Assembly: GCF_004168285.1 (NCBI RefSeq)
Contig: NZ_SEWF01000044.1
Location: forward strand, 1-50,877
Length of the DNA stretch: 50,877 nt
DNA from: Emticicia agri
Lineage (GTDB): Bacteria > Bacteroidota > Bacteroidia > Cytophagales > Spirosomataceae
Direction of reading: 5' to 3'
Below are positions 1,807 to 49,479 of the stretch, piece after piece. The notes below the pieces were generated by a model. It worked only from the letters and a program-made list of their open reading frames with translations, had not been told where the DNA came from and made no database searches. A program made the position numbers and the translations under genes. Within the stretch, counting starts at the first letter, position 1, and the number at the start of each line of letters is the position of its first letter.

Positions 1807-1950
1807 AGTCAGTGTGGCAGCCGGGGGCGCCCAGCCGTTCTTAGAACGGCGTTTATGAAATATTGTATTCAGATAAAAGCATTTGGTTTTTGTTAAATAT
1901 AATCATTTGTTTGATGAAATGTCGTTCTAAGAACGACTGACACACTGACT
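1807..1950. repeat. MITE-like element with inverted terminal repeats
   Basis: The left terminus AGTCAGTGTGGCAG matches the right terminus (reverse complement AGTCAGTGTGTCAG). Each continues inward into the palindrome CGTTCTTAGAACG and then a short matching stretch. The element has no coding capacity (144 bp). The left terminus is split by a 14-bp GC-rich insertion at 1821-1834. The right end runs straight into REP copy 3. It is probably mobilised by a transposase located elsewhere, or is a palindromic repeat. Confidence 0.75.
1821..1834 (+). repeat. GC-rich mini-hairpin (copy 1)
   Basis: CCGGGGGCGCCCAG sits exactly where the left terminus of the surrounding element should continue into CCGTTCTTAGAACG, as the right terminus shows. 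CAGCCG is present on both sides of the hairpin core, consistent with a target duplication. The core GGG-GGCG-CCC has a GNCG-type loop. It is 14 of 16 identical to the copy at 47110-47125. Confidence 0.7.
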
Positions 1951-1970
1951 GAATATACATTCAGCCAAAC
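1946..1970. repeat. REP-like palindrome, copy 3
   Basis: CTGAATATACATTCAG with the same TGA and CCAAAC flanks as copy 1, differing at a single base over 25 bp. It overlaps the right end of the element at 1807-1950 by TGACT. Confidence 0.72.
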
Positions 1971-1997
1971 TTAGGAATTTTTGCTTTAATAATAAAT

Positions 1998-2717
1998 CTA
2001 CTTCCGCTTCCACAACATCATCCACTCATAAATCTCATCTTTTTCATACAAATACTGTATGCCATGCCCTTCGTTTTCGAGGCGTGTAAATTTGATATTG
2101 CCCTCGCATGCGTCTAAAGCTTTTACAACCCTTTCTGTTTCGCTGATAGGAATAATGTTATCTGCCGTACCGTGGAAAGTCCAGATTGGTAGTTTTTTTA
2201 GGGTAGGGCATAAACGGTTCATATCATCGTCGTTGACACCTCCGCAAAGCGGAACGATAGCTGCTAATTTATCGGCATGTTCTATTCCTGCAATAAAAGT
2301 ACCATAGCCGCCCAAGCTGATGCCTGTCAGGTACACACGGTCGGCATCTATTCTGTACTTAGTCGTAAGTTCGGCATAAAGCGAATCAAACCAGTTTTCG
2401 GTACTCCAGTATTTGCCACCAGGGCATTGTGGCGAAGCCACAATAAAATTAAACTCTTTGCCTTTATCAATCACATAAGGCAAGCCATATCCCTTTAGCT
2501 TGTTCAGGTCGTTGCCCCGGTGTGAACTTCCATGTAAGTATATAACCAGCGGGTATGGCATAGTTTTTTTGTCATAGTCCTTAGGTAAGGACAGCAAATA
2601 ATTATATCGGGCCTTAGGTTTATCAGTAGTTTGTGCATAAGTACAGCTTAAGCAAAACAATGAAAAAAGCAGACAAACAGGCGTGTGTGGGTTGAAATAC
2701 CGATTCAGAAAGTACAT
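1998..2717 (-). CDS. Secreted alpha/beta-hydrolase (esterase-like)
   Basis: A 239-residue hydrolase of the alpha/beta fold, in the PHB-depolymerase/esterase-like group often annotated as prolyl oligopeptidase family. The N-terminus (about 1-28, ending in TYAQ) looks like a signal peptide, so the enzyme is probably periplasmic. A Cys at 25 makes a lipoprotein possible, though the lipobox is poor. The oxyanion-hole strand VIYLHG (58-63) precedes the nucleophile elbow GISLGGYG, with Ser134. The acid is likely Asp186 in HGTADNIIP and the base His218 in NEGHGI. The substrate cannot be deduced. It diverges from the outer-membrane gene at 3030. Confidence 0.85.
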   Translation of the reverse strand: MYFLNRYFNPHTPVCLLFSLFCLSCTYAQTTDKPKARYNYLLSLPKDYDKKTMPYPLVIYLHGSSHRGNDLNKLKGYGLPYVIDKGKEFNFIVASPQCPGGKYWSTENWFDSLYAELTTKYRIDADRVYLTGISLGGYGTFIAGIEHADKLAAIVPLCGGVNDDDMNRLCPTLKKLPIWTFHGTADNIIPISETERVVKALDACEGNIKFTRLENEGHGIQYLYEKDEIYEWMMLWKRK

Positions 2718-3029
2718 CCAGGTTTTTGATTTAAGTAGTTGATCATAAGTTGATTGCTATTTGAGTGTTGGGTTAAGTCAGCTATAACTTTTGTTTGAAT
2801 AATTCAGAGGCAATTTAAGGCATATTCCCCTTGAGTTTTATCGGTAAGCAAAATATAATTTCAGGCTGTTAAAAAAATAATAGCCAACGAATGCAATAAA
2901 AATGTGTAGATAAACAACCAGTTTGATGTGTTTTATCTACACAACACGTATATTGGTCGTCTGATATTGAGGTATGGCTAAACTTTAATCCACTTTTATG
3001 TTCTAATAGATGTCAACTATTTACTAACA
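2718..3029. other. Divergent intergenic region with a 12-bp inverted repeat
   Basis: No gene is visible. The one structured element is TGTGTAGATAAA at 2903-2914 and its exact reverse complement at 2932-2943, separated by 17 bases. It lies 86 bp before the start codon at 3030 and could be an operator or a leader hairpin. No T-run follows it, so a terminator is less likely. Confidence 0.6.
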
Positions 3030-5873
3030 ATGAAGAAGTATCTATTCAGCGTATCACTCACACTTTTAGTTTCTGCTAAAATTTTTGCTCAAGGAGTAGA
3101 AGTAACAGGAACGGTACAAGAGGCAAAAACCAAAATAGCAGTGGTTGGTGCCAGCGTATTACTCATTAATCAGCAAGACAGCACGCAACGTAAAGGTGTA
3201 CAGGCCGATACCGTAGGGTTCTTTAAATTTGCGGCTGTACAACCCGGCAATTATCTCCTGCGTGTTACTTCTATTGGCTACGACGACCACGAAACTAAAG
3301 TAACCATTGGCACTACTGCCAAAAACCTCGGTACCATTATTATGGGCGAAAATGCCCGTCAACTCAGTGAGGTAGTAGTACGTGAAAAACAGATACGTGT
3401 AGAGCAAAAAGGCGACACGGTTCAGTACAATGCCAGTGCCTATAAAACAAACCCTGATGCTTCTGCCGAAGACCTTGTAAAGAAAATGCCCGGTGTAACC
3501 ATTGAAAACGGTGTTGTGAAAGCACAGGGAGAAGATGTAAAAAAAGTAACTGTTGACGGCCAGGAGTTTTTTGGCGATGATGCCACATTAGCACTAAAAA
3601 ACCTGCCTGCCGAAATTATAGACAAAGTACAGGTTTTTGACCGATTGAGCGAACAAGCCCAGTTTACAGGATTTGACGACGGCAACTCGGTCAAAACTAT
3701 CAACATTACCACTGTGCAGGGTAAAAACAACGGACAGTTTGGGAAAGTATATGCAGGCTATGGCGAAAACGACCGCTATCAGTCGGGTGTAAGCATGAAC
3801 TTCTTTAAAAAAGACCAACGCCTCACTGTAATTGGACTATCGAACAATATCAATCAGCAAAACTTCTCTAATCAGGATATTCTCGGGGTATTAGGGTCAT
3901 CAGGTGGTGGTGGTGGATTTGGTGGTCCTGGCGGCGGCGGAGGTGGAGGTCGTCCCGGTGGTGGCGGTGGTAACTTTGGTGGCGGCGGTGGCCGTCCGGG
4001 TGGTGGCGGAGGTGGTAGCAGTGCCGGAGATTTTCTGGTAGGTCAGCAACCGGGTATCGCACATACCACCTCAATCGGTTTAAATTATAGCGATAACCTG
4101 GGCAAAAAAGTAAAATTGAATACCAGCTATTTTTTCAATTCGGCTAACAATGGAAATGTCAGTACATCGCATCGTGAGTATTTAGGAACTGTGCCACAGA
4201 CGTATGATGCCGTAAGTACATCAGACAACGATAACATGAACCATCGGGTAAATATGCGTCTCGAATACAATATCAACAAAGATAACTCTATCATATTTAC
4301 CCCTCGTATCAGCTGGCAGGACAACAATGCACTTTCAACCTTAGATGCTAAAACTATTCTGAATGGTGCTTTACAGAATACTACACAAACCTCTCGCAAT
4401 TCAAATAATAAAGGATTCAATTTATCAGGCGAATTGCTTTACAGACATCGTTTTGCCAAAGAGGGTCGTACGTTCTCTATTAGTTTACAAGACAATCTGA
4501 GCGACCGTACTGGCTTAATCAATCAGTATTCAACTAACCGTTATTTTTCACCGAACGATACCACTCAGATTATCAATCAGCAGACCAGATCGCTGACAAA
4601 TAGCAACAGAATGTCGGCCAATGTAACTTATACAGAGCCTCTAAGCAAAACATCACAGTTGCAGTTCGACCATAATATCTCTTATACTTTAAGTTCGTCT
4701 GATAGAAGAGTGAATGATTTTGACGAAAAAACAGATAGCTATTCATTGCTGAACCAGTCACTGAGCAGCGTGTTTGATAACGATTACCTGACTAACCGTA
4801 CAGGTGTCAGCTATCGTCTTCGTAACCAACAATCATTCTTTACGGTTGGGGCTTCTTATCAGAATGCGCAATTAGCAAGCGCACAAACCTACCCGTTGGC
4901 TCAGGATGTAAAGTACTCGTTCAATAGTATTTTGCCAAATGCTATGTTCAATTATCGTTTCGAAAACAAAGCTAATTTACGGGTATTCTATCGTACCAAT
5001 ACCAATGCTCCCTCGGTTAATCAATTACAGGACGTAATTGACAACAGCAACCCTACACAACTTTCGACAGGTAATCCTGATTTGAAACAGGATTATACCC
5101 ACAACGTCTCTATACGTTTCGGTTCAACCCAGTCTAAAACAGCGCAGAGCATCAATGTATTTGGTAATTTCAGTTATTCAAACAATGCCATTGTACAATC
5201 GACTTTCATAGCCGACCAGGATTATGAATTAGCTAATGGCATTATCTTGTTCAAAGGTTCACAATTGAACAAACCTGTGAATATGGATGGTATGCTGAGT
5301 CTGCGGTCTTTTGTAAGCTACGGTTTACCCGTAACAAAAATCAAATCAAATGTGAACTTTAATGCAGGGTTCTCTTATGCCAAAAACCCTAACCTTATTA
5401 ATAATGCCAGAAGTTTTACCAATAATTATGGAATTAATGGTGGGGTAGTGGTGAGTAGCAGTGCCAGCGAGAAACTCGATTTTACACTTTCGTTTTCGCC
5501 AAGCTACAATATTGTACGTAATAGCTTACAAACCAATCTGAACAGCAATTTCTTCTCTCAGAACAGTAATTTTAAACTGAACTGGTTATTTGGTAAAGGT
5601 TTCGTGTTTCAGACAGAAGTGGTTAACCAGTCATACTCAGGTCTGGGAGCAGGTTATAACAGAAGCTTTACCCTTTGGAATGCAGGTTTAGGCTACAAAT
5701 TCCTGAAAAAACAAGCGGGTGAATTACGTTTCAATGTATTTGATATCCTGAAACAAAACAACAGCATCAGTCGTAATGTGTCAACAGCCTACGTAGAAGA
5801 CGTGAGAAACATGGTATTAGGCCGTTATTATATGCTGACCTTTACCTACAACCTGCGTAATTTCAGATTATAA
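3030..5873 (+). CDS. Outer-membrane beta-barrel protein with CarboxypepD_reg-like domain
   Basis: A 947-residue protein starting with a signal peptide (MKKYLFSVSLTLLVSAKIFA). Residues about 21-110 form a CarboxypepD_reg-like fold (GTVQEAKTKIAVVGASVLL). A plug-like region follows (about 115-230, including VKKMPGVTIENG and DGQEFFGDD), and then a long barrel to the C-terminus. This is the Bacteroidota TonB-receptor-like layout (outer membrane beta-barrel family) used for import or envelope functions. The ligand is unknown and no SusD partner is adjacent. Residues about 291-331 are an extreme glycine tract with interspersed Pro, Arg and Phe, probably a flexible surface loop. The gene stands alone, divergent from the esterase. 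Confidence 0.88.
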   Translation: MKKYLFSVSLTLLVSAKIFAQGVEVTGTVQEAKTKIAVVGASVLLINQQDSTQRKGVQADTVGFFKFAAVQPGNYLLRVTSIGYDDHETKVTIGTTAKNLGTIIMGENARQLSEVVVREKQIRVEQKGDTVQYNASAYKTNPDASAEDLVKKMPGVTIENGVVKAQGEDVKKVTVDGQEFFGDDATLALKNLPAEIIDKVQVFDRLSEQAQFTGFDDGNSVKTINITTVQGKNNGQFGKVYAGYGENDRYQSGVSMNFFKKDQRLTVIGLSNNINQQNFSNQDILGVLGSSGGGGGFGGPGGGGGGGRPGGGGGNFGGGGGRPGGGGGGSSAGDFLVGQQPGIAHTTSIGLNYSDNLGKKVKLNTSYFFNSANNGNVSTSHREYLGTVPQTYDAVSTSDNDNMNHRVNMRLEYNINKDNSIIFTPRISWQDNNALSTLDAKTILNGALQNTTQTSRNSNNKGFNLSGELLYRHRFAKEGRTFSISLQDNLSDRTGLINQYSTNRYFSPNDTTQIINQQTRSLTNSNRMSANVTYTEPLSKTSQLQFDHNISYTLSSSDRRVNDFDEKTDSYSLLNQSLSSVFDNDYLTNRTGVSYRLRNQQSFFTVGASYQNAQLASAQTYPLAQDVKYSFNSILPNAMFNYRFENKANLRVFYRTNTNAPSVNQLQDVIDNSNPTQLSTGNPDLKQDYTHNVSIRFGSTQSKTAQSINVFGNFSYSNNAIVQSTFIADQDYELANGIILFKGSQLNKPVNMDGMLSLRSFVSYGLPVTKIKSNVNFNAGFSYAKNPNLINNARSFTNNYGINGGVVVSSSASEKLDFTLSFSPSYNIVRNSLQTNLNSNFFSQNSNFKLNWLFGKGFVFQTEVVNQSYSGLGAGYNRSFTLWNAGLGYKFLKKQAGELRFNVFDILKQNNSISRNVSTAYVEDVRNMVLGRYYMLTFTYNLRNFRL

Positions 5874-5964
5874 GATTATTAAGATTGAGGATATATGGCA
5901 ACGAGGTTGTCTCAAAAGTCTTTTGTGCCAAATATTATTTGGAAAAATCCTCACCCCAACCCCT

Positions 5965-5979
5965 TCGCGCGGCGTCCGC
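5965..5979 (-). repeat. GC-rich mini-hairpin (copy 2)
   Basis: TCGCGCGGCGTCCGC separates CCCCT from TCCTGG, where the surrounding repeat would otherwise read through to its GGAGAGGGG partner. On the minus strand it is GCGG-ACG-CCGC followed by GCGA. It matches the 46978 copy at 13 of 15 positions. Confidence 0.62.
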
Positions 5980-6037
5980 TCCTGGAAAAGGAGAGGGGCT
6001 TAAAGTCTCCCTCTCCTGCTGGAGAGGGAGATTTAGA

Positions 6038-6050
6038 GCGGACGTCGCAC
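6038..6050 (+). repeat. GC-rich mini-hairpin (copy 3)
   Basis: GCGGACGTCGCAC lies between TTTAGA and GGGGTGAGG in the right arm of the composite element. It resembles the reverse complement of copy 2 (12 of 15 positions, counting adjoining bases), in a mirrored position. Confidence 0.58.
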
Positions 6051-6158
6051 GGGGTGAGGAGAAAATTCCACCAAATAATATTTCGTACGATTTTCTTTTG
6101 AGACGTCCTCGTTTTTGTTGTCTATTATATCGGAATTAGCTCATCCCTATCTACTCCA

Positions 6159-7139
6159 TTACTCATAAAGCGGCAAAAACTTGGGAGGTATTTCTTTTAG
6201 TGTAGGAGGATTTGCATTGATATTCTGCTTGTTGAGTATCATTTCATAGTATTTCAGATAGTCTCTGGTGGTTTGCTGAATCGTAAAATTATCCGCCACA
6301 TATTCAGAACATTTCTTGTTGCTGAACTGCTCAATATCCTTTATCTGGGCTACCAGTTCAGACTTTCTGTCTGACAGGAAACCTACTTCTTTGGTAACCA
6401 GTTCGGGCAACGAACCATAGGGCGTACCAAAAACCGGACAGCCCATATACAGGCTTTCAATAATAGCAATACCAAAAGGCTCATGCCATAATACCGGAAA
6501 TAACAGCCCTTTAGAAGCATTCAACAATTGATTTTTTTCTTCTCCTCCTGTCATTCCATAGAAACTGATACTCGGATAAAGGGTAAACCGGAATCCCATT
6601 TTAATATTAAGCCTGTTTCCACCCAATACAGCTAATTTATTATGGCTTCTTCTCGCTATTTCAATAGCTCCTTTTACATTCTTTACACGCCAGGCGGCTT
6701 TTGCCAGAAAATGCAGATGCGTTCGCTTCTGCGTAAAAGAGGGCTTGCCGTAGTCTTCTAACTTTAAACCATTATAGACATACGCCTCTGACTGATACCT
6801 TGCCGCATGGTCTTTTGAAACAAATACGGTATTTATATCAAAGGGTTCAAAATCGTTTCTGTTCCCCTGATTCATTACCAGATAAGGCTTTGATAAAGGC
6901 TCTTTGGGTTTCTCGTTCAGATGCAGAATGTCAATGTCTTCAGGAATCTGTTTTTCAATCGGAATATTGGGGTCGTAAGTAATTACCCGGGCAAAATCGC
7001 TTTTAGTGCCTTCAGGCGTAAGAAAAGTGATTTTATGACCCATTTTGGTCAGTTCCTCACCCAACCACCATAAAATACGTTCAATACCACCATATTTAGT
7101 CACAGGCAATGCAGTGTTACTCGAAATAAGAATGTTCAT
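6159..7139 (-). CDS. Glycosyltransferase family 4
   Basis: A 326-residue GT-B glycosyltransferase. The N-terminus MNILISSNTALPVTKYGGIER carries the GG(I)E acceptor-side loop typical of family 4. The donor-binding half ends in the motif HEPFGIAIIESLYMGCPV, the EPFG...E pattern that contacts the nucleotide sugar, followed by YGSLPELV. It is slightly short for the family but both lobes are present. It probably transfers a sugar to a small acceptor or surface glycan in the cytoplasm. Sugar and acceptor are unknown. It is transcribed from a good Bacteroidota-type promoter just upstream and ends near the repeat at 5901-6112. Confidence 0.86.
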   Translation of the reverse strand: MNILISSNTALPVTKYGGIERILWWLGEELTKMGHKITFLTPEGTKSDFARVITYDPNIPIEKQIPEDIDILHLNEKPKEPLSKPYLVMNQGNRNDFEPFDINTVFVSKDHAARYQSEAYVYNGLKLEDYGKPSFTQKRTHLHFLAKAAWRVKNVKGAIEIARRSHNKLAVLGGNRLNIKMGFRFTLYPSISFYGMTGGEEKNQLLNASKGLLFPVLWHEPFGIAIIESLYMGCPVFGTPYGSLPELVTKEVGFLSDRKSELVAQIKDIEQFSNKKCSEYVADNFTIQQTTRDYLKYYEMILNKQNINANPPTLKEIPPKFLPLYE

Positions 7140-7163
7140 TCAATCAAAGTTTTGGATTTTCTG

Positions 7164-7196
7164 CAAAGGTAAGGTTTCTGTAACTAAGTATGCAAA
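7164..7196 (-). promoter_or_regulatory. Bacteroidota-type promoter for the glycosyltransferase
   Basis: On the minus strand the -7 box TACCTTTG is at 7171-7164 and a -33 box TTTG at 7196-7193, with 21 bases between them. The start codon at 7139 follows 24 bases after the -7 box. Both boxes match the TTTG/TAnnTTTG consensus. Confidence 0.6.
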
Positions 7197-7405
7197 AAAA
7201 CAAATCAACTATGTGTGAATAATTGAAAAAGAGGTTCATATGTTTTTACCTTACAATAAAAAGTTTATTGAGATTGTGATACTTCATTTTCACAATTTGT
7301 TTTTTTTTGAGCATATTGCACTTTATTTTGACGGGCATATTTTTGTCCTTGTCTGACAAACAAATCATTTCCGGCAATTGCTGATTGAATCGTACAACGA
7401 AACTC

Positions 7406-8581
7406 ATGTCTATGGCTTCACATTTCCTTAAAAAATTAAAGTTTGTTTTCATTCAGGTAATAGTATTGGTTATCATTCTGGAATTGTTCTCGTTTGTTGC
7501 TATCCGATGGTTTCATTTCGGATTACCGCCGAAGGTGTATTCTACGCAGTTTCTGCCTTTTTTTGTCGATAACGATAAAACATTCGGGGTTTGGCATTAT
7601 GCCGATACCACTACCCGCCATATTGGTCCTTGCTGGAATGTGGAATACCAGTTTAATAGCTATGGCGCACGGGACGATGAGCGCCAAAAGGTTTCTGACA
7701 AAAAACGGATTGTGTTTTTAGGCGATTCATTTATTGAAGGCTATGGCATTGATAAAGAAAAAAGGGTATCTGACCTGATGGAGAAAAATATGAATATGGA
7801 GTGTCTGAACTTTGGAGTTTCGGGGTCATTTGGTACTACACAGATGCGCCTGTTGTATGAGTCAAAAGCCAAAGAGTTCTCGCACAATGCCGTGGTGCTT
7901 TCATTTTTCCCGTTCAACGATTTCCTTGATGATAATTATGAATTTGGTAAGTCTTTTTTTTATACGCAACGGCGTTACCGACCTTATTTAGTTAAAGACT
8001 CTACCAAAGACTACCAACTGGTTTATCATGTAGATGCGTTAGAAAAATCGCAGGCATATCCTGATAGTATTCCTAAACGAACAGCCAAAGATTTATTGAA
8101 TGATATTTATTACAGCAATAGGGGGATAGTAGGTAAAACAGGTGCGTTAATCAATAATTTTACTTACACAGGGGCTATGGCTGAATTTATCGTTAATCGT
8201 ATGAAATTCACGCAGTCAGGTACTGAGCAGACCTACAAAAGCGATGTGTTCAGCCAGAAAAATACCGATGCTATGGATTTGTTCTGTCATAATGTGAATA
8301 AAATTAAAGAGATGGCCGGAAATAAACCTGTCATTGTGCTGCTGATTCCGCATCCGCTTGATTTGATGGAATACAAGAAAACCGGAAAAAGTTTACTGCG
8401 TGATGATTTGAACAAATTTGGTAAGTCGGCCAATATTCATGTAGTTGATTTATTAGACGCCTTTGCCAAATTAGAAAATCCGGGCGAATATTTTCTGCCC
8501 TGCGACGGGCATTGGTCAGAGAAAGGCAACGAATTTGTAGCAGAGGTATTGCAAAAGAAAATACAGGAGCTAAATTTGTAG
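7406..8581 (+). CDS. Membrane-anchored SGNH-hydrolase-like protein
   Basis: One hydrophobic segment near the N-terminus (VFIQVIVLVIILELFSFVAI) anchors a periplasmic SGNH-type domain. The block I nucleophile motif is FLGDSFIEGYG and the C-terminal block V is DGHWSEKGNEF, with Asp and His spaced as in AlgX/AlgJ and other SGNH proteins. The frame can be extended to a TTG at 7385. ATG 7406 is the first ATG and is preferred, with a second ATG at 7412. The family includes esterases and polysaccharide O-acetylation factors. No MBOAT partner is adjacent here, although one exists at 47 kb. Its stop is 15 bases before the next gene, so the two are probably co-transcribed. Confidence 0.82.
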   Translation: MSMASHFLKKLKFVFIQVIVLVIILELFSFVAIRWFHFGLPPKVYSTQFLPFFVDNDKTFGVWHYADTTTRHIGPCWNVEYQFNSYGARDDERQKVSDKKRIVFLGDSFIEGYGIDKEKRVSDLMEKNMNMECLNFGVSGSFGTTQMRLLYESKAKEFSHNAVVLSFFPFNDFLDDNYEFGKSFFYTQRRYRPYLVKDSTKDYQLVYHVDALEKSQAYPDSIPKRTAKDLLNDIYYSNRGIVGKTGALINNFTYTGAMAEFIVNRMKFTQSGTEQTYKSDVFSQKNTDAMDLFCHNVNKIKEMAGNKPVIVLLIPHPLDLMEYKKTGKSLLRDDLNKFGKSANIHVVDLLDAFAKLENPGEYFLPCDGHWSEKGNEFVAEVLQKKIQELNL

Positions 8582-14866: not shown

Positions 14867-14883
14867 GAGAATTGTCGAGTTTC

Positions 14884-14902
14884 GAACGGGTCGCCGTTGC
14901 GA
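14884..14902 (+). repeat. GC-rich mini-hairpin (copy 4)
   Basis: GAACGGGTCGCCGTTGCGA: stem AACGG / CCGTT with loop GTCG and tail GCGA. Compared with the 49463 copy (AGCGG/CCGCT) the second stem pair changes on both sides, a compensatory change. Confidence 0.65.
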
Positions 14903-14970
14903 TGCAGATTGTCGAATGAGGTGCGAGATGCCTTGTCGATGTTGAATATAGAGGAGAATTGTCGATTTTC

Positions 14971-14989
14971 GGATGGGTCGCTGTTGCGA
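14971..14989 (+). repeat. GC-rich mini-hairpin (copy 5)
   Basis: GGATGGGTCGCTGTTGCGA: same loop GTCG and tail GCGA, but a weaker stem (ATGG / CTGT needs two G-T pairs). The inverted partner of this repeat unit has AATTTCAG instead at this place. Confidence 0.6.
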
Positions 14990-42258: not shown

Positions 42259-43446
42259 ATGATGCGAATTATTATCTGCGATATATATGTAAAATTAGTA
42301 GGACATAATTTAGGACACATTCAGAATATCTTACGATTTTTAGAACAAAACCCCACCGAAACTGAATATGTGTTTTTGCTGAATCCGGAAGCAAAAGCCA
42401 TTCCGTCTATACGCACTTCGGCTAAAAACGTACAAATCACTTTCTTTACCGACGAAGAATTTGCCCCCCATCTGTCGGGCATGAGCCTCATCAAATCAAC
42501 ACATTTTCTATGGAAGACAATCATGAAATATGTCAGCGACTGGAAAGCTGACCGATTGATTTTAATGATGGTGGATATGTTTCAGCATACGATTGGCAGT
42601 AGTCGCCCGCCCTGCGAAATTACAGGTATCATGTTTAACCCTTATCCGAGAGTAATTCCGGCAGAGGGAACATTCCGTTCAAAACAACAAACGGCCGTTA
42701 CCAAAGCCCGTAAAATGTTTACTTCGTGGTGGATGCTGCGTAACAAAAAACTGAAGAAAGTCTTCATTTTTAACGACCGGCAAACGGTGAAGACTATGAA
42801 TGAGACACTCGGTACAAAAATATTTACGTATCTGCCAGACCCTGTCTATGATTATCCGTCAAGAGCCGGATTGGATATCAGAGCACAATATGGCATTGAT
42901 GCCGATAAAAAAATATTGCTGGCATTTGGTATGATTGACAGCAAAAAGAATGTAGTAAATCTGCTAAAGGGCTTGCAGGAATTATCGGCAGAAGAGGCCA
43001 CCCGAAGTTGCTTGTTAGTGGTAGGTAAAATCAGAGACGAGTATCAGGCACCATTGGCAGAAGCATTAGCAGAAGCTAAACAACTTCGTCCTGAATTACA
43101 GGTAGTGTTAGAGAGCCGCTTTGTGGACGATGATGAAATGGAATCGTTTGTGGGGCAAAGCGATGTGATTTCGCTGGCTTATATCAATTTCTATTCATCA
43201 AGCGGCGTAATTGGTCTTGCCTCCCGACATAACAAGCCCATTATTGCTACTAAATACGGCGTAGTAGGAGACCACACCCGTGAATACCAGTTAGGCTTGA
43301 CAGTTGACGGACACAAACCCGAAGAAATCAAAGAGGCTTTTCAGTATTTTCTGCATACCCAAAAAATAGAATATCCTTTAAAAGCAAAACAATTTGTAGA
43401 AGACCATACCAGCGAGGCATTTATCAGAACGCTGTTAGAGCTATAA
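42259..43446 (+). CDS. Glycosyltransferase (GT-B-like)
   Basis: A 395-residue protein with GT-B character. The N-terminal half (MMRIIICDIYVKLVGHNLGH, FLLNPEAKAIPS) is an unusual acceptor domain. The C-terminal half has a Rossmann-type donor domain, with KKILLAFGMIDSKKNVVNLL, CLLVVGKIRDEY and SSSGVIGLASRHNKPIIATKYGVVG. The EX7E motif of family 4 is not clear, so a distinct family is possible. It lies after the GT4 gene, and surface polysaccharide synthesis is likely. Confidence 0.75.
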   Translation: MMRIIICDIYVKLVGHNLGHIQNILRFLEQNPTETEYVFLLNPEAKAIPSIRTSAKNVQITFFTDEEFAPHLSGMSLIKSTHFLWKTIMKYVSDWKADRLILMMVDMFQHTIGSSRPPCEITGIMFNPYPRVIPAEGTFRSKQQTAVTKARKMFTSWWMLRNKKLKKVFIFNDRQTVKTMNETLGTKIFTYLPDPVYDYPSRAGLDIRAQYGIDADKKILLAFGMIDSKKNVVNLLKGLQELSAEEATRSCLLVVGKIRDEYQAPLAEALAEAKQLRPELQVVLESRFVDDDEMESFVGQSDVISLAYINFYSSSGVIGLASRHNKPIIATKYGVVGDHTREYQLGLTVDGHKPEEIKEAFQYFLHTQKIEYPLKAKQFVEDHTSEAFIRTLLEL

Positions 43447-43498
43447 TTTTATCGGTAACATGCACTTGCTTATGAAAGACTTACATGAGTTTTCAGGT

Positions 43499-44161
43499 TC
43501 ATCTATGTTTTGTTACACCAATCTGCTCACAGAATTCTAATACCGGACAAGTAGAACACTTTGGTAAATTACCTGTACAGATATGTTTGCCAAATGGCAT
43601 CAATAAGCGATTTATATCAATCCATTGTGCAACAGGTACTTTTACTTCCAATACCTTCAGGGTTTTTTCAGGCTGATTCGCTTCTACAAATCCCCAGCGA
43701 TTCACTACCCGATGCACATGAATATCTACACTGATGGCCGATTGTCCGGCCGCTACACCCAATGCCAGATTGGCACATTTCGGGCCTACACCCTTCATTT
43801 CTATAAGTTTTTCAAAATCGGCAGGTAAATCTCCGTCGTATTTTTCAAGGGCAGTCTTAGCAATTCCGAGCATGGTATAAGCCTTCTGCTCAGGGTAAGA
43901 ACTACCATAGAGTAATCCGGCCAGTTTCTCAGGGCTTAATTTTAGTATATCTTCCGGCGTACGGGCTACTTCGAACAGCTTCAACGATACCGGAATCGTG
44001 GTTTCGTCGAACGTGCGGATAGAAATAATACAGGAAATTAATTGTTCAAATAAAGAAGTATAACCCCGTTCGGCCAGTTCGAACATGGCCGCTTTCGGAA
44101 ATGGCTTAATCGCTTCCTCAATCCGGGCAAGCATCAACGTAAGGTCAAAGTTGGGCTTCAT
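43499..44161 (-). CDS. nth: Endonuclease III
   Basis: A 220-residue HhH-GPD base-excision DNA glycosylase/AP lyase. The helix-hairpin-helix is EMKGVGPKCANLALGVA with catalytic Lys128, and the catalytic Asp146 is in SVDIHVHRVVNR. The iron-sulphur loop has Cys195, 202, 205 and 211 with the standard C-x6-C-x2-C-x5-C spacing. It removes oxidised pyrimidines and cuts the abasic site. The residues are all present, so it should be active. It converges with the glycosyltransferase gene, 52 bp apart. Confidence 0.92.
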   Translation of the reverse strand: MKPNFDLTLMLARIEEAIKPFPKAAMFELAERGYTSLFEQLISCIISIRTFDETTIPVSLKLFEVARTPEDILKLSPEKLAGLLYGSSYPEQKAYTMLGIAKTALEKYDGDLPADFEKLIEMKGVGPKCANLALGVAAGQSAISVDIHVHRVVNRWGFVEANQPEKTLKVLEVKVPVAQWIDINRLLMPFGKHICTGNLPKCSTCPVLEFCEQIGVTKHR

Positions 44162-44238
44162 CGTATCTTTTTGTTTGAATTATCCGTACAATATTAAAAA
44201 TGCGTGCCAATTCAAATTTCAGCGATTTTCGATTTCGT

Positions 44239-44262
44239 AGGGGTTCAAAATCTTGAACCCCT
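44239..44262. repeat. AGGGGTTCAA palindromic repeat
   Basis: AGGGGTTCAA-AATC-TTGAACCCCT, perfect 10-bp arms, flanked by TCGT and GTATAGATATATCC. Located upstream of nth, between its start and the terminator of the DUF5618 gene. It looks like a dispersed intergenic repeat. Confidence 0.6.
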
Positions 44263-44310
44263 GTATAGATATATCCTACCACGAATTGAATGAATATATG
44301 ACAACAAAAA

Positions 44311-44338
44311 AAGTGACTGAACTACAGTTCAGCCACTT
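44311..44338. terminator. Terminator downstream of the DUF5618 gene
   Basis: AAGTGACTGAACT and AGTTCAGCCACTT form a 13-bp stem with one mismatch and a 2-base loop. A-run on the left and T-run on the right make it usable in both directions. Confidence 0.8.
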
Positions 44339-44392
44339 TTTTTCTGCCGAATATTATTAACGCAAAAATTAATCAATTAAAAAAAAGATTTT

Positions 44393-44767
44393 TTAACCTA
44401 ATCGGGTATCGACCCAATTGATAATATTTTCTGCTTCTTCTAATCCTAATTTAGCCAATTTGGCACTTGGCGTACCATCATAACTCATATCTAAGTGTAA
44501 TAGTTGATAAGCAGTAGCAAAAGAAGACGTTATTTTTTTATCCATTTTTGCCAATCTTGACTGATACCATTCTACCGATTTACGTCCTTTTTTTTCTTCG
44601 CGTAATAGTTCATCAAGGGCAACTAATATAGCCAAATAAGCAGTATGCCCTGCCATTCGTACATATTTTTTGTCTTGGTATAAGCCGTCCTCTTTTCTTA
44701 CTTTTTCCTTTAAAATATCCTTTGCATTATCGATATAACGCATGGCTTCTGTTATTGCAGTTGACAT
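44393..44767 (-). CDS. DUF5618 family protein
   Basis: A 124-residue, all-helical soluble protein matching DUF5618, a small family of Bacteroidota. Typical stretches are EAMRYIDNAKDILKEKVRKEDG, DKKYVRMAGHTAYLAILVALDEL and VEWYQSRLAKMDKKI. The arrangement resembles HEPN-like helical bundles, but the HEPN catalytic motif is not evident, and no toxin-antitoxin partner is adjacent. Function unknown. It is monocistronic with its own terminator. Confidence 0.78.
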   Translation of the reverse strand: MSTAITEAMRYIDNAKDILKEKVRKEDGLYQDKKYVRMAGHTAYLAILVALDELLREEKKGRKSVEWYQSRLAKMDKKITSSFATAYQLLHLDMSYDGTPSAKLAKLGLEEAENIINWVDTRLG

Positions 44768-44863
44768 TTCAAATAATTAATATGTTAAAATACTACAAAG
44801 AATTTAAAGAAATAAAAGGGTATGAAATTTAAATACAATCAACGACTTGAACTACTAATATTT

Positions 44864-45841
44864 TCACACCAATTCGGCTACTTCTTTATTGGCTTGTTCC
44901 GAAATCCATTGGTAGGTTTTGGTGATACCCTCTCTCAATGATTGTGACGGAGCCCAGCCTAATTTCTCCTGAATCAGGGCATTGTCTGAATTACGACCAC
45001 GTACCCCTTGCGGACCAGGAATATTTTTAATAGTAATTTTTTTGCCTGAAATTTCGGCAATCATTTTCGCAAAATCGTTGATTGAAATCATTTCTTCTGA
45101 ACCGATATTTACAGGACCAGAGAAATCAGATTCCATCAAACGACGAACACCTTCTACGCATTCATCTACATACAAAAACGAACGTGTTTGTTTGCCATCG
45201 CCCCAGATTTCGATCGTACCACCGTCTTCTGCTTCAATTACTTTACGACAGATAGCCGCAGGTGCTTTTTCTTTACCACCTTTCCAGGTACCTTGCGGGC
45301 CAAAGATATTATGAAAACGAGCTACTTTTACAGTAATGCCTAAATTACGTTGGTAAGTAAGATACAGACGTTCGCTGAATAATTTTTCCCAGCCATATTC
45401 GCTGTCAGGAGCCGCAGGATACGCTGATTCTTCTGAACATTTAGGGTTTTCAGGGTCAAGCTGATTGTACTCAGGGTACATACAAGCCGACGAAGAATAG
45501 AAGATTTTTTTCACACCTGCCTGTTGTGCGGCATGTAGCATGTGCAGGTTACAAAGTGCCGAATTGTGCATCACAGCCGCATCGTTTTCACCTGTAAAAA
45601 TATATCCTGCGCCACCCATATCAGCAGCTAATTGATATACTTCATCAAAACCACCTTCTAAAACATTTTTACAAACTACCGGGTCAGTCAAATCACCGAT
45701 TACAAAATCATCGGCATTCCCGTTTCCATATTCGTTATATTTTAAATCTACACCTCTCACCCAATAACCTTCACTCTTTAAGCGATTAACCAAATGGCCT
45801 CCGATAAAACCACCTGCTCCACATACCAGTGCTCTTTTCAT
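44864..45841 (-). CDS. NAD-dependent epimerase, GDP-mannose 3,5-epimerase-like
   Basis: A 325-residue short-chain (extended SDR) enzyme. The Rossmann motif GAGGFIGGHL is at 8-17. The catalytic Ser/Tyr/Lys lie in YSSSACMYPEYNQ and EYGWEKLFSERLYL. AYPAAPDSEYGWEK and RFHNIFGPQGTWKGGKEKAP closely follow the GDP-mannose 3,5-epimerase pattern, which makes GDP-L-galactose or GDP-L-gulose. A related sugar-nucleotide substrate cannot be excluded. It would supply activated sugar for the glycosyltransferases at 41-43 kb. Confidence 0.87.
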   Translation of the reverse strand: MKRALVCGAGGFIGGHLVNRLKSEGYWVRGVDLKYNEYGNGNADDFVIGDLTDPVVCKNVLEGGFDEVYQLAADMGGAGYIFTGENDAAVMHNSALCNLHMLHAAQQAGVKKIFYSSSACMYPEYNQLDPENPKCSEESAYPAAPDSEYGWEKLFSERLYLTYQRNLGITVKVARFHNIFGPQGTWKGGKEKAPAAICRKVIEAEDGGTIEIWGDGKQTRSFLYVDECVEGVRRLMESDFSGPVNIGSEEMISINDFAKMIAEISGKKITIKNIPGPQGVRGRNSDNALIQEKLGWAPSQSLREGITKTYQWISEQANKEVAELV

Positions 45842-45890
45842 AGAAATAATTTATGCTATTAAGTTATCAAATAAACATCTAAATAAAATA

Positions 45891-45898
45891 CAAATTTA
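45891..45898 (-). promoter_or_regulatory. Probable -7 box of the epimerase gene
   Basis: TAAATTTG on the minus strand, 49 bases upstream of ATG 45841. Fits TAnnTTTG. No clear -33 box. Confidence 0.42.
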
Positions 45899-45924
45899 GT
45901 GAACGTAGCCGTATAAAAAAAATA

Positions 45925-46911
45925 TTATAGTTTCTGATTTACTGCATTAATCCAAATCTGTTTCCCCTCGCAATTCCAGTGCGTGTCTCCTGCATCATAC
46001 AGCATCTTTCCTGATGTGTTTAATGGGGTGTAAATATCGAAGAAAGGCATGTGTAAAGCAGGGTGTTTCTGAATTCGTTCAATTAGGTGGTTATATTCAC
46101 CTAAATCGGTACCTAAAACAGAACTCTTGTTCGGAGCAATCGTCAGATATACTTCATCGAAACCGTTATTTCTGTAAAAATCGTAGGTTAGGTTCACATT
46201 CTTTACTAATAACTCAATTTCTTTATCAGAAATTTTATCAAACGTAGAAGTAATGCCACTCGGGCGGGCGTCTAATTCATAGAAAATGTTCTTTTTGTCT
46301 TTCGATACCACCACGTTTCCATCGGTTCTGTCAAACAAACGGTCGTTCAGTATGGCTTTCCATTCCTTGATAGTCAGGAAAAAGCCTGATGAAAACAACA
46401 CTGATTCATGTCGCTCCGAATCGTACCAGAAGTCAGACTTGGCCTCTTTCATCAGGCTCTTCATGGCTTGTTGGGTAGTAGGTTCGCCAATGGTCAGGTT
46501 TTTATAGGGTGTAGCAAAACGTTCTCTGAAATGGCGTTCAACCGTCTCAATTACCAGTACATTCTTCTTAGTTTTGTCTAATTTAACAAAAGGCTGATGC
46601 CCGATAAAGAATCGATGAAAACTACCGCTTACAAAATCTCCGGCTTCAATACGACCCTCTTCCGTAAAACTATCCCCAATCAGATACAATGCTGTATTGG
46701 GTTTGGTAACAGGCATTTTACCCGGTTCACAAACCTGTTTTAAAACCCTGAATTGGGGCAGATTTGAAAAACGATACAAATCACCAAAGCGGTAATCATC
46801 TTCTATGATACCCTTTTCATACAGCCATTTTGATATATGCGGCGAAAATCCCAACAACCATAAGACTGAAAAGATGATGAGGGTGGTATATTTTATTATT
46901 TTTTTATTCAT
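45925..46911 (-). CDS. SGNH-like polysaccharide O-acyltransferase component
   Basis: A 328-residue protein with one N-terminal membrane anchor (YTTLIIFSVLWLLGFSP) and a periplasmic SGNH domain of AlgJ/AlgX type. The GDS motif is LIGDSFTEEGR (Ser81). The C-terminal Asp309-x-His311 is in YDAGDTHWNCEGK. Such proteins receive acyl groups from a membrane MBOAT protein and pass them to a polysaccharide. The MBOAT gene lies upstream on the same strand (47218-48627), 306 bp away, supporting this role. It has its own -7 box next to a palindromic repeat cluster. Confidence 0.82.
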   Translation of the reverse strand: MNKKIIKYTTLIIFSVLWLLGFSPHISKWLYEKGIIEDDYRFGDLYRFSNLPQFRVLKQVCEPGKMPVTKPNTALYLIGDSFTEEGRIEAGDFVSGSFHRFFIGHQPFVKLDKTKKNVLVIETVERHFRERFATPYKNLTIGEPTTQQAMKSLMKEAKSDFWYDSERHESVLFSSGFFLTIKEWKAILNDRLFDRTDGNVVVSKDKKNIFYELDARPSGITSTFDKISDKEIELLVKNVNLTYDFYRNNGFDEVYLTIAPNKSSVLGTDLGEYNHLIERIQKHPALHMPFFDIYTPLNTSGKMLYDAGDTHWNCEGKQIWINAVNQKL

Positions 46912-46946
46912 TGGGGTGGACTGAAATGGTATTATTTACCAAACTT

Positions 46947-46954
46947 CAAATTTA
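46947..46954 (-). promoter_or_regulatory. Probable -7 box of the SGNH gene
   Basis: TAAATTTG on the minus strand, 35 bases upstream of ATG 46911. The palindromic repeat cluster begins immediately upstream, so the -33 region falls inside a repeat. Confidence 0.45.
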
Positions 46955-46977
46955 GTCCCGTAGGAACGATATATCGG

Positions 46978-46989
46978 CGGCCGCCGCGC
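46978..46989 (+). repeat. GC-rich mini-hairpin (copy 6)
   Basis: CGGCCGCCGCGC lies between ATATATCGG and GGTAGG. The inverted partner repeat reads ATATATAGGTAGG without it. With neighbours it folds as GCGG-CCG-CCGC followed by GCGG. Confidence 0.65.
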
Positions 46990-47109
46990 GGTAGGAAAAT
47001 AAGAATTTGTTCGTTAGAGTCCTGTAGAGACGATATATTAATATACCGTCTCTACAGGACTTAGGATTCTTATCGTGCGTTGTTTTTACCTACCTATATA
47101 TTATCCCTA

Positions 47110-47125
47110 CGGGGACGCCCAGTCG
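47110..47125 (+). repeat. GC-rich mini-hairpin (copy 7)
   Basis: CGGGGACGCCCAGTCG: stem GGG / CCC with loop GACG (ACGGG with an A bulge before GT). 14 of 16 positions agree with the 1820-1835 copy in an unrelated repeat. Confidence 0.65.
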
Positions 47126-47217
47126 GGATATTAATTGAATTTTTATTGTTTCATTCAAATTTGTAACTCTATAAATTTTTTACTGATTTACCTGTATTGC
47201 TATCTCAATTATTCTCC

Positions 47218-48627
47218 CTAAAACTGAAAATAAATAAACTGATTTGATTCAAATACGCCGAAGAAATAACACACAGTCATCAGCACAATAAACAGGATAT
47301 AAAACTTCGTGGTATTGTTTGTATCAATTACTTTATAAAAACGTTCTTTCAGCAATAAACCTGCAATCAATAGCCAACAAAATGCCATTTCTACATTGTT
47401 CAAAGGCGAATCTATGGTTTGTCCATAACTGCCGAATGAAAATATTTTCTGTAGAATAATCTTGGCGTTCGTCAAGCCCTTTGCCCTGAAAAATACCCAG
47501 GTGAGCATCACCAATATAAACGTAAAAGCCAGATGAAAAGGTTTACTCAGAAAACCGGGAAGTATATTGGTTTTGAGTTTAAAGTACTTATCCCGAATCT
47601 GTGCCATAATCAGGTATAAACCATGTAAAGCCCCCCAGATGACAAATGTCCAGGCTGCGCCATGCCATAGCCCACTCATCATAAATACAAAGAACCGATT
47701 AAAATACTTCCGTCCTTCGCTCACTCTGTTGCCACCCATCGGAATATACAGGTAATCTCTGAACCAACCTGATAACGAAATATGCCACCTGCGCCAGAAC
47801 TCCGAAATTGACGTAGAGAAGTAAGGCGTATCAAAGTTTTCCATCAGCTTAAAACCCATTACTCTCGCTGTACCGATGGCAATGTCAGAATAGCCCGAAA
47901 AATCACAATAAATCTGAAAAGTAAAGAAAATAGTGCCAATTAATAAGGTAAGTCCGTTGTGGTCTTGTGGATTATCGTAGCAATAATCTACTACTAATGA
48001 CAGTCGGTCGGCTATGACCACTTTTTTAAACATACCCCAGGCAATACGCATCAGCCCCTCTTTCAGGTTGCCGAAATCGTATTTGAAGAAACTATGAAAC
48101 TGCCATAAAAGATTCTGGGGTCGCTCAATAGGCCCGGCTACCAATTGTGGGTAAAACATCACGTAAAGCGAATAAATAACAAAATCTTTCTCTGCTTTCT
48201 GATTTCCCCGATATACTTCAATGGTATAGCTCATAGCCTGGAAAGTATGAAACGACAAACCTATAGGCAAAGCAAAATCAAGAAAAGCAAATGGGGTAGG
48301 CGTATCGAATTTTGATAACAGAATGGCCAGATTGGTATTCAGAAAGTTATAGTATTTGAAATAGGCCAGAAAACCGATATTGGTAATGAGACTCAACACC
48401 AGCAGCCACTTTCGTTTTTTGCCCGTAGCATCGGCAATCAGAATACCGGCAAAATAATCAACAACGATGGTTACAAATAAGATAAGAATATAAATAGGCT
48501 TGAAAACCGCATAAAAATAACAACTCGCCAGGAGCAACAACCAGATTCTGCCTCGGTGTGGTAAACTGAAATAAGCTAAAGTAACAACAATAAAAAAGAA
48601 TACGAATTGTAATGAATTAAATAGCAT
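47218..48627 (-). CDS. MBOAT-family O-acyltransferase (AlgI-like)
   Basis: A 469-residue membrane-bound O-acyltransferase of the AlgI/DltB group, with about ten hydrophobic segments. The conserved region is GYSDIAIGTARVMGFKLMENFDTPYFSTSISEFWRRWHISLSGWFRDYLY, broken here only for description, and the catalytic His is in SGLWHGAAWTFVIWG. It moves acyl groups, usually acetyl, across the inner membrane onto a surface polysaccharide through an SGNH partner, encoded next downstream. Length is normal (AlgI is about 500). Confidence 0.92.
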   Translation of the reverse strand: MLFNSLQFVFFFIVVTLAYFSLPHRGRIWLLLLASCYFYAVFKPIYILILFVTIVVDYFAGILIADATGKKRKWLLVLSLITNIGFLAYFKYYNFLNTNLAILLSKFDTPTPFAFLDFALPIGLSFHTFQAMSYTIEVYRGNQKAEKDFVIYSLYVMFYPQLVAGPIERPQNLLWQFHSFFKYDFGNLKEGLMRIAWGMFKKVVIADRLSLVVDYCYDNPQDHNGLTLLIGTIFFTFQIYCDFSGYSDIAIGTARVMGFKLMENFDTPYFSTSISEFWRRWHISLSGWFRDYLYIPMGGNRVSEGRKYFNRFFVFMMSGLWHGAAWTFVIWGALHGLYLIMAQIRDKYFKLKTNILPGFLSKPFHLAFTFILVMLTWVFFRAKGLTNAKIILQKIFSFGSYGQTIDSPLNNVEMAFCWLLIAGLLLKERFYKVIDTNNTTKFYILFIVLMTVCYFFGVFESNQFIYFQF

Positions 48628-48980
48628 TCAGGCGTTTCGTTAGTTCAGAAATCAAGTTTCAAAGTTCAGAGTAATTATCAAAGTTTCAAAGGTATTTTTA
48701 TAGAGAATATTTATTATTACAGATTTTTTGAATAAAAGGCCTGTTGATTAAGAGGCACCGGGTTATTGTATTTTAATGCATTCTAATGGTTTATAATTGT
48801 CTCATAATAAGGTGTTTCTGGTTTTTAAAATTCAAATAAAATCAAGAAAATGTAGAAAATCTGTGCAAATCCTGTGCAAATCCTGTGCAATTTTTTTTGT
48901 ATATCTGAAATAAGAAAACAAACTTTTTATGAACACAAATATAGTAATTTCATTGGATACTCGCAGAAAAAAAATGAGGG
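48628..48980. other. Intergenic region upstream of the MBOAT gene
   Basis: A -7-like TACCTTTG (minus strand, 48694-48687) lies 59 bases upstream of ATG 48627. A short tandem repeat, CTGTGCAAATC repeated 2.8 times, is at 48861-48892. No gene is seen. Confidence 0.5.
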
Positions 48981-49104
48981 GTGATAATGGTCGCATTTGC
49001 CACTCTCTTAACATGGGCAATACCTTGTCTGTAATACTGGTAAGTTCACTGGCAGACAAGGAATATCCATATATTTCCTGAAGATGTTTGCCTATTTCTG
49101 AATA

Positions 49105-49122
49105 GCCGCACGGGCGGCCCCG
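49105..49122 (-). repeat. GC-rich mini-hairpin (copy 8)
   Basis: GCCGCACGGGCGGCCCCG replaces AC of the intact IS copy (AATA-AC-TCATAC at 555-566). On the minus strand: ACGGG-GCCG-CCCGT followed by GCGG, with TCA just before it. Confidence 0.75.
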
Positions 49123-49462
49123 TCATACTCCTGCTATACATCGAAATAATTTGACCCTCTAATTGCTCTGTTAAAACAACCTGTCGTTTGGGTACGATAC
49201 TTGGTTCAAAGCTTACAGAGCGGTCTCCTGGCGTTTGTAGCTCAAATTCTCCAACATTACTTTTTACTCGTTTAATTGAAGTCCCATTTCGCCTGTTTGA
49301 CTTACCTAATGAACGCTCCTCCAATAAATGAGCTTCCATCTCGCCCTGTAAAGATTGTTCTAAAAAATGCTTGAGCATGGGAGCAAAGATGCCATTCTGG
49401 CCTGTTAAGGGCTTGCCTGAGTATAAACCCTTGATGGCTTCTTCTTGAAAAGCCTTGAATCG

Positions 49463-49479
49463 CAGCGGCGACCCGCTCG
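49463..49479 (-). repeat. GC-rich mini-hairpin (copy 9)
   Basis: CAGCGGCGACCCGCTCG inserted after TCG, with TCG repeated at its end. The intact IS copy at 895-901 has a single TCGAAG. Minus strand: AGCGG-GTCG-CCGCT with tail GCGA. Confidence 0.8.

Follow-up and report, generated by a model that had tools for sequence, protein, structure and literature searches.

The GC-rich blocks that interrupt unrelated repeats in this DNA raise the question of whether they are fixed parts of longer repeats or mobile units. The window, i.e., the whole stretch of 50,877 nucleotides of Emticicia agri DNA that was analysed (contig NZ_SEWF01000044.1), contains nine such blocks, all lying within two bases of where the original prediction had placed them. 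These blocks are precise insertions with covarying stems, which occur in many unrelated hosts and whose presence differs among sister species. Probably they are members of a superfamily of mobile DNA hairpins, 14, 15 or 16 bp long and non-autonomous, which a putative enzyme mobilises in trans. If true, they would be among the smallest movable pieces of DNA described in bacteria and, to our knowledge, a cargo of 14-16 bp would rank among the smallest mobile units in cells generally. We know of no enzyme in hand for the spread of tiny hairpin elements such as yeast mitochondrial GC clusters and cyanobacterial small dispersed repeats (SDRs). The units described here combine a synthesisable length, exact borders, a defined main target and well over a hundred copies in a single genome with polymorphic orthologous sites in sister strains whose genomes are sequenced, which makes the mechanism directly testable.

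Nine hairpin blocks in the window

Each unit consists of a 4-bp stem, a loop of 3-4 nt, the complementary 4-bp stem and an unpaired tail of 3-4 nt. The predicted stem, loop and tail plan is recovered, but its loop reads NCG or NNCG instead of GNCG, with TCC, GTG, GGG or GGC in sister types; tails include GCG, ACG, CCC, CGC, CGG, CCG, NGCG, CCCG and similar. The blocks are indeed short and GC-rich, although not spread over 12-19 bp: with borders set by comparison with empty sites, most measure 14 or 16 bp and some 15. The commonest, or main, type is GCGG-NCG-CCGC-GCG|G. Extra DNA relative to an internal reference had been claimed for four blocks; an empty match, defined as at least 14 of 20 agreeing bases around the junction, was found for all nine, with one match each for the two sites in an insertion sequence (IS).

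The 14-mer GGCT-GGG-CGCC-CCC (1823..1836, minus strand) occupies one arm of a palindromic repeat and has nine empty matches, the best being the repeat's other arm, from 1955 in the window, and L028. Its borders are slide-ambiguous, which accounts for the CAGCCG doubling formerly taken as a target duplication; other copies of this type show the full 14 nt with zero slide (L050, 10151). A host palindromic repeat at 5900..6113 (CCTCACCCC...GGGTGAGG; no strand assigned), with empty copies in e.g. L043 and L068, bears one element per arm. These are GCGG-ACG-CCGC-GCG followed by A (5966..5979, minus strand; 6 empty matches, best L043 with 19/20) and the variant GCGG-ACG-TCGC-ACG with one G.T pair and target A|G (6038..6051, plus strand), for which the top three of four empty matches (L068, L066 and L043) agree at 20/20 bases. 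The 16-mer ACGG-GTCG-CCGT-TGCG at 14886..14901 (plus strand) has 16 empty matches, the best (L054 and L035) at 18/20, and a diverged 16-mer, ATGG-GTCG-CTGT-TGCG (14973..14988, plus strand; 15 empty matches, best 17/20), occupies a duplicated copy of the unit at 14867-14917. Since these two share one duplicated unit, the nine blocks do not represent nine independent insertions.

At 46977..46990 (plus strand) the 14-mer GCGG-CCG-CCGC-GCG precedes GTAG in a host repeat (...GATATATCG|GTAG), a context shared by five element copies in Emticicia agri DNA; the best three of its seven empty matches, in loci of genomes G002 and G003, reach 16-17/20. GACT-GGG-CGTC-CCC (47111..47124, minus strand) lies in the host repeat TATCCCTAC|GGGATATT, and the best three of six empty matches, again from G003 and G002, reach 17-18/20. 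Two 16-mers on the minus strand, CGGG-GCCG-CCCG-TGCG (49107..49122) and GCGG-GTCG-CCGC-TGCG (49461..49476), interrupt a remnant of a Mutator-family transposase (PF00872, E 5e-11 in the ORF at 49046-49378) and are absent from the second copy of this IS remnant at 428..991 (minus strand), their single empty matches scoring 16/20 and 18/20, respectively. The TCG doubling reported at 49461 is no target duplication either, as the left TCG is made up of one flank base and the first two bases of the element. This 16-mer recurs with similar flanks in G003 (L223, 6414 and 9690). A search of the window against Rfam gave no match at gathering score.

Abundance, folding and insertion sites

In the window alone the pattern GGGNCGCC is weakly above chance (5 matches vs. 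1.71 expected; 4 of 100 shuffles as high). Genome-wide, the matches in Emticicia agri were far from few: allowing up to two mismatches, GCGGNCGCCGCGCGG occurs 141 times and its reversed pattern not once, which is decisive, and GGGGNCGCCCAGYCG 38 times against 10. The 16-mer pattern was found 37 times in sampled DNA of five genomes (reversed, 0). Among the 200 genomes sampled from the family, 44 carry an exact 15-mer, against one match for its reversed control; the 15-mer is spread over 12 of the 36 genera sampled, within unrelated hosts. A loop census over 448 kb proved too weak as a test for the family because loops vary. The sampled Emticicia agri DNA, 1.58 Mb (~24%), was picked around motif hits and so over-represents 14-mers. 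When gaps between repeat copies were scanned, with the insert sequence left unassumed and inserts detectable only where the host has a second copy, lengths peaked at 14 and 16 nt: of 97 GC-rich inserts, 84 measured 14-16 nt.

The suggestion that folding is under selection was borne out, covariation lying above all 500 shuffles in both alignments tested (scores of 0.409 vs. 0.111 and 0.402 vs. 0.109). One alignment holds 19 rows from a pattern that fixes the inner stem pairs and 4 taken from inserts and one orthologue; the rows of the other were hand-picked from inserts and pattern matches. All four stem pairs form in 27 of 72 inserts (mean of 500 shuffling runs 8.7, maximum 17) and two or fewer in 16. 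The 72 "unique" inserts are not free of redundancy, as near-duplicates remain (CAGT-TCC-ACTG-CGG is counted twice) and one type appears in shifted readings. The outermost stem bases, which the search pattern leaves free, are complementary in 33 of the 37 16-mer matches, with AT, TA, GC and CG all present.

The view of a minimal mobile hairpin family is upheld by the empty sites, which are common: of the 89 main-type copies in the sampled Emticicia agri DNA, 81 have one (with no fewer than 15 of 20 bases agreeing at the junction), as does every block in the window. The main type inserts between a purine, mostly A, and G, with its tail adjoining the G: a G comes next in 54 of the 55 distinct contexts from four genomes and in 75 of the 81 empty sites. 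Targets of other types are looser. The main type shows no constant target duplication, and slide-free exact inserts occur, e.g., a|TCGGACCGCCGAAGCG|g. Hosts comprise intergenic palindromes, IS remnants and tRNA genes, and 30 clusters of host context in Emticicia agri show that the hairpins are not ordinary parts of longer known repeats. By crude ORF masks, likewise used in the loop census, only 8 of the 89 sites fall in ORFs of at least 100 aa, though 82.6% of the sampled DNA is so masked. Translational bypass or a micro-intron was rejected for now, since only 6 of 183 sites have in-register open frames in both flanks; among those six, L227 and L243 resemble IS3-type transposases by eye.

In the sister species Emticicia sp. 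C21 and BO119, orthologous positions differ by the exact presence or absence of 14 or 16 bp, including in tRNA T arms; tRNA-Lys and tRNA-Pro copies are among the interrupted genes. Filled and empty alleles occur at orthologous sites of a syntenic tRNA array, and at site 4860 the BO119 orthologue is filled. These T-arm insertions bear on the decay of tRNA arrays. An 87-nt tRNA-Ala was observed in L018. Across the 55 contexts from four genomes, insertions favoured neither paired nor unpaired bases of the folded host. Nor is there the strand bias that lagging-strand insertion could produce (Emticicia agri 22 vs. 27, BO119 4/5, C21 8/7, G064 2/8, 16-mers 9/15).

Candidate enzyme and rival explanations

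An enzyme encoded elsewhere would recognise the folded hairpin and its tail and join copies into purine|G sites. Selection presumably removes insertions in genes, and intergenic palindromes, IS remnants and spare tRNA genes would for that reason be the places that harbour the elements. We favour a HUH/Y1 transposase of the IS200/RAYT kind as the mobilising enzyme because it is the described class known to us that reads a small hairpin together with an adjacent unpaired guide and inserts without duplicating the target; the assignment is unproven and the weakest step of our interpretation. The short fixed target of the main type (A/G|G) and the lack of target duplication resemble IS200/IS605-type transposition, in which TnpA recognition involves guide plus hairpin (PMC6006769). 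Quite possibly, if tentatively, the whole mobile unit is a single hairpin plus its 3-4 nt tail, recognised by its fold and not its bases, which would let many sequence types use one enzyme. Such a unit would parasitise other repeats, IS remnants and tRNA arrays in many genera within one family.

A candidate of this kind is present in the window, a predicted REP-associated tyrosine transposase (RAYT) of 194 aa at 1095..1679 on the minus strand (NF047646, 1.4e-27; PF01797, 3.4e-6), whose model match lies 168 bp from the element at 1823 and which is accompanied by AT-rich palindromes at 992, 1713 and 1945. Four carrier genomes contain 23 RAYT matches, of which 4 have an element no more than 500 bp away. 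A uniform distribution would predict 0.40 (P 0.0008); when a threefold intergenic preference is allowed for, P becomes 0.03. Some of the cases had already been seen when this test was made. The proximity may be indirect, RAYT flanks being rich in palindromes of the host type, and the four loci examined, of seven matches in Emticicia agri, adjoin other palindromes. RAYT or Y1 genes as the linked enzyme were not retained, since every one of the 25 genomes tested has RAYT-model matches (over the curated cut-off in only 14), their numbers do not follow copy number (G000 7, G001 2 and G002 7; copy-poor G003 10 and G007 11) and their proximity is suggestive but post hoc. Y1 matches in the Emticicia agri genome number four.

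Copying through RNA, by which a hairpin transcribed within host repeats or tRNA-like genes returns to DNA through reverse transcription or RNA-templated repair, seems unlikely to us. Its hosts do include tRNA genes and intergenic palindromes, high copy number suits copy-and-paste, and the authors of work on yeast GC clusters (PMC4478555) partly suspect RNA-mediated retrotransposition; the fixed junction before G, however, suggests an endonuclease. That the elements are fixed parts of host repeats and spread when these undergo gene conversion or duplication is highly improbable, even though single contexts hold several copies (8, 8, 7, 6 and 6 in the largest of the 30 clusters) and transposon copies carry elements along, as in L223, the transposon-like context that supplies some of the inserts from G003, whose stretches were picked around host-repeat matches. 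The variety of contexts, 55 over four genomes, the four elements inside one host repeat (L021, 8755 to 8874) and the filled and empty orthologous sites contradict this process as the sole cause; it surely adds to copy number.

We likewise give very little credence to footprints, i.e., a fixed end of 14-16 bp left by a larger transposon on excision. The fixed length and sequence at many sites and the constant junction speak for it, but paired elements enclose no consistent gene (36 main-type sites in 20 stretches of 16 other genomes, judged by ORF lists only), and tandem 14-bp arrays, such as the exact double copy of a 1823-type element in a similar host in L012, would be hard to obtain. A master copy bounded by inverted elements was sought in 20 stretches from other genomes, by ORF lists only, and none was seen. 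The chance that the blocks are assembly or library artefacts, or random GC-rich words, is negligible: the home assembly is still a draft in 174 contigs, and in GC-rich relatives the one-mismatch pattern does not exceed its control (e.g., 25 vs. 47 in G046 and 5 vs. 20 in G058), but the main type recurs in other assemblies, with some copies at orthologous positions, related inserts of the same size lie in a complete chromosome, and the reversed pattern is absent from the Emticicia agri genome.

Comparison with known small elements

The statement that no named bacterial family fits is not supported, because the cyanobacterial SDRs (e.g., SDR5) are a close precedent in style, being very small, dispersed, mobile repeats with empty sites; the comparison is one of style. 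SDRs measure about 21-27 bp, we know of no transposase for them, and the title of Elhai et al. 2008 calls them mobile. SDR5 is reported to enter a different repeat, HIP1, at an exact position between two of its nucleotides (PMC4390886). The Emticicia hairpins differ in their 14-16 bp, fixed length classes and occurrence in Bacteroidota.

REP/REPIN elements with RAYTs are also small palindromes with an unpaired end, mostly intergenic and sometimes in inverted pairs, and RAYT-model matches exist in the genomes tested here. However, REPs span 20-40 bp, those with CGTC having stems of 8-9 bp, and MITEs, likewise non-autonomous and moved in trans, 70-300 bp with terminal inverted repeats of 15-30 bp (both PMC3733652), whereas the Emticicia hairpins are 14-16 bp long with stems of 4 (or 3) bp, lack a terminal GTAG or CGTC tag, and use other palindromes as insertion sites.

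The proposed likeness to yeast mitochondrial GC clusters holds for the GC-rich hairpin and the selection for folding. GC42, as its name implies, is 42 nt long and, together with its kin and the repetitive hairpin-forming elements of sponge mitochondria, an organelle element, whereas ours are bacterial. Changes in such mitochondrial elements concentrate in the loops and their target nucleotides are AG (PMC4478555; PMC2800124), with a putative AG target duplication for GC42 (PMC4478555), in contrast to the slide-free exact inserts of Emticicia. The open-licence literature yielded no description of such hairpins. One of four main-type strings occurs in a paper on Caulobacter (PMC5472812).

Insertion sites in the window and elsewhere in the genome

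Contig 44, one of the 174 that make up the 6.65-Mb draft genome of Emticicia agri, is the window. Among the genomes of a named collection, Emticicia sp. C21, BO119 and Emticicia sp. 21SJ11W-3 are closest to this genome. Emticicia (Bacteroidota, Cytophagales) belongs to the Leadbetterellaceae according to NCBI. All nine GC-rich blocks of the original prediction were found in the window, and its reading of them as extra DNA was borne out: each has at least one block-free flank match elsewhere in the DNA compared (at least 14 of 20 bases agreeing around the junction). The elements at 1823, 5966, 6038, 14886, 14973, 46977 and 47111 have 9, 6, 4, 16, 15, 7 and 6 such empty matches, respectively, and those at 49107 and 49461 one each, provided solely by the second copy of an insertion sequence (IS). 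Two Mutator-family transposase remnants (window 428-991 and 48976-49571; 89-92% identity by segment) are present, one of which contains two tiny elements.

The 89 copies of the main type (GCGG-NCG-CCGC-GCG) with at most one mismatch in the examined DNA of this genome occupy 30 host contexts, and 81 of them are matched by an empty site that agrees in 15 or more of 20 bases. Only eight lie inside ORFs of at least 100 aa, though such ORFs mask 82.6% of this DNA. At the empty sites the junction is preceded by A (50), G (24), T (4) or C (3) and followed by G (75), A (5) or T (1), and G follows the main type in 54 of 55 distinct contexts from four genomes. Other types are less strict, the 16-mers occurring mostly after A or G and before A or G. 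Insertion is precise, repeated and structure-conserving. No constant duplication was seen when filled sites were compared with empty ones; HUH transposases are not known to duplicate their target. Exact 14-bp tandems are present and arise by insertion beside another element, and one host repeat (in stretch L021) holds four elements. Some host repeats are palindromes of a kind also found beside Y1/RAYT genes; other hosts are tRNA genes and IS remnants. In stretch L061 (1860-2500) a tandem array of a repeat with AGTCCCGTAGGGACGATATATCGGTAGAAAA adjoins a Y1 transposase gene; elsewhere this repeat is a host of main-type elements.

Abundance, anatomy and folding

The loop motif shows no more than a modest excess within the window. 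Genome-wide, GCGGNCGCCGCGCGG has 141 matches with up to two mismatches against 0 for its reversal, and 77 are exact among the 100 matches listed. A second type, GGGGNCGCCCAGYCG, has 38 such matches (19 with 0-1 mismatch) against 10 in the control, the latter with all mismatch classes pooled. A 16-mer pattern gave 37 matches against 0 reversed in the examined DNA of five genomes: 25 in E. agri, 1 in BO119, 6 in C21, 0 in 21SJ11W-3 and 5 in G064, a genome of a different genus.

A motif-free scan, in which the examined DNA was aligned to itself (gaps of 6-60 nt flanked on each side by 14 bases of which 11 or more agree), found 144 insert places in 1.58 Mb of E. agri DNA picked around motif matches. 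The 97 with a GC content of at least 0.6 are mainly 14 (57), 15 (7) or 16 nt (20) long; the 47 of lower GC include eight of 14 nt and one of 16 nt. In 0.42 Mb of 21SJ11W-3, picked around host repeats, 16 of 18 GC-rich inserts measure 13-16 nt, some being copies within one transposon-like context, and several follow the E. agri plan with different stems; the main type itself does not exceed the control there (2 vs 2). GC-rich inserts of 14-16 nt also occur in BO119 (2), C21 (8) and G064 (2), besides other sizes.

The 14-mers comprise, besides the main type, GCGG-ACG-TCGC-ACG, GACT-GGG-CGTC-CCC and kin (in the GACT type a T.C mismatch sits above a stem of 3 bp), CAGT-TCC-ACTG-CGG and CTGC-GTG-GCAG-CCG; the 15-mers are GCGG-AACG-CCGC-CCG and CCGG-AACG-CCGG-CCG, and the 16-mers NCGG-NNCG-CCGN-NGCG, GTGG-TCCG-CCAC-CGCG and CGGC-AGCG-GCCG-ACCG. 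Among the 72 inserts 14-16 nt long that were treated as unique, 27 have all four stem pairs (mean 8.7, maximum 17 in 500 shuffles), 56 at least three (mean 40.4, maximum 51) and 16 two or fewer. The outermost stem bases of the 16-mers, free in the search pattern, are complementary in 33 of 37 matches. It had been proposed that stem bases change in pairs. In an alignment of 23 distinct rows, 96.7% of cells are paired, and both-side changes (14 cells vs 3.0 ± 1.5 in shuffles) agree with this, although two of the four stem pairs are invariant and the count of doubly changed pairs is unremarkable (183 of 500 shuffles). In the GACT type each of the 39 cells is paired, and every one of the three stem pairs shows double changes. 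Since the rows are kin to one another and in part chosen by hand, these covariation figures are supportive rather than exact probabilities.

Distribution among relatives

The tRNA array on contig 5 of E. agri is syntenic in BO119 and C21, with 15, 11 and 13 ARAGORN calls, respectively. The array stretches (L013, contig 5:29000-48999; L085; L086) are partly degenerate and repeatedly struck by 14/16-bp elements. Ten element sites were compared between the species. Those at 6790, 7508, 7788 and 7846 are filled in E. agri and empty in both relatives; the second tRNA-Lys is filled in E. agri and BO119 and empty in C21, and the tRNA-Ile filled in E. agri, empty in C21 and unaligned in BO119. Site 8239 is filled in E. 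agri and C21 and empty in BO119; 8709 is filled in E. agri and empty in BO119, with a different sequence in C21; 4860 is filled in E. agri and BO119 and unaligned in C21; and 11054 is filled in all three. Gaps at the empty sites measure 14 or 16 bp. ARAGORN calls three of the interrupted tRNA genes (Ile, Lys, Pro), at 89-91 nt, and the remaining interrupted sequences are, by eye, tRNA-like and degenerate; T-arm locations were assigned by eye via stem pairing. In another genome (G172) two element-bearing tRNA-like sequences received no tRNA call while the intact tRNA-Ser beside them did, and interrupted copies are therefore, judging from sequence, probably spare.

At one mismatch the main type occurs 102 times in E. 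agri, 21 in BO119, 37 in C21 and 0-2 in other congeners; G064 has 64 against 3 in the control, and several GC-rich relatives have no more matches than their control. In a sample of 200 genomes from the family, which we take to be the Spirosomataceae, the exact A-form 15-mer was found in 44 genomes and 12 of 36 genera, and its reversed control matched once in total. Most hosts seem unrelated at 36 sites in 20 stretches from 16 of the 44 carrier genomes. G064 and G227, which belong to different genera, have the main-type element at the identical point of a transposase gene that looks IS3-like by eye (L105, L243); this may reflect a common target or transfer along with the IS. IS3-like genes, likewise recognized by eye, are broken by one and the same 14-mer in L105, L243 and L227, and L227 and L243 have a second insertion point in common, within one genus. 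In L230 (2982-3799; G236, another genus) the 14-mer occurs seven times in a tandem array with a period of about 136 bp, each unit also having a GC-rich block upstream.

Possible mechanism and relation to known systems

That these are mobile hairpin elements seems to us nearly certain. An enzyme acting in trans would read the hairpin plus its tail, and HUH transposases are the best fit in style; in such transposases a guide adjoins the hairpin foot (PMC6006769). An HUH step appears somewhat less likely than not, and the explanation as a whole, with this step optional, is probable. RAYT matches do not track element copy number, element orientation has no strand bias, and host fold positions indicate no structural preference in the target. 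Elements lie within 500 bp of 4 of 23 RAYT matches (G064 contig 415:5036, C21 contig 23:462547, E. agri contig 11:100703 and contig 44:1823), where uniform placement would give 0.40 (P 0.0008; allowing threefold for intergenic preference raises this to 0.03); the test was made post hoc with 100 of the 141 main-type places in E. agri, and this closeness is a post hoc hint only.

Cyanobacterial small dispersed repeats, as represented in citing papers, and mitochondrial GC clusters are nearest in style to the elements, of which searches of open-licence papers found no description. Identity with REPs was rejected, as neither size nor tag agrees. Within 992-1970 of the window a RAYT gene is surrounded by copies of an AT-rich palindrome (CTGACTGAATGTACATTCAGCC), which is perhaps the REP of that RAYT itself.
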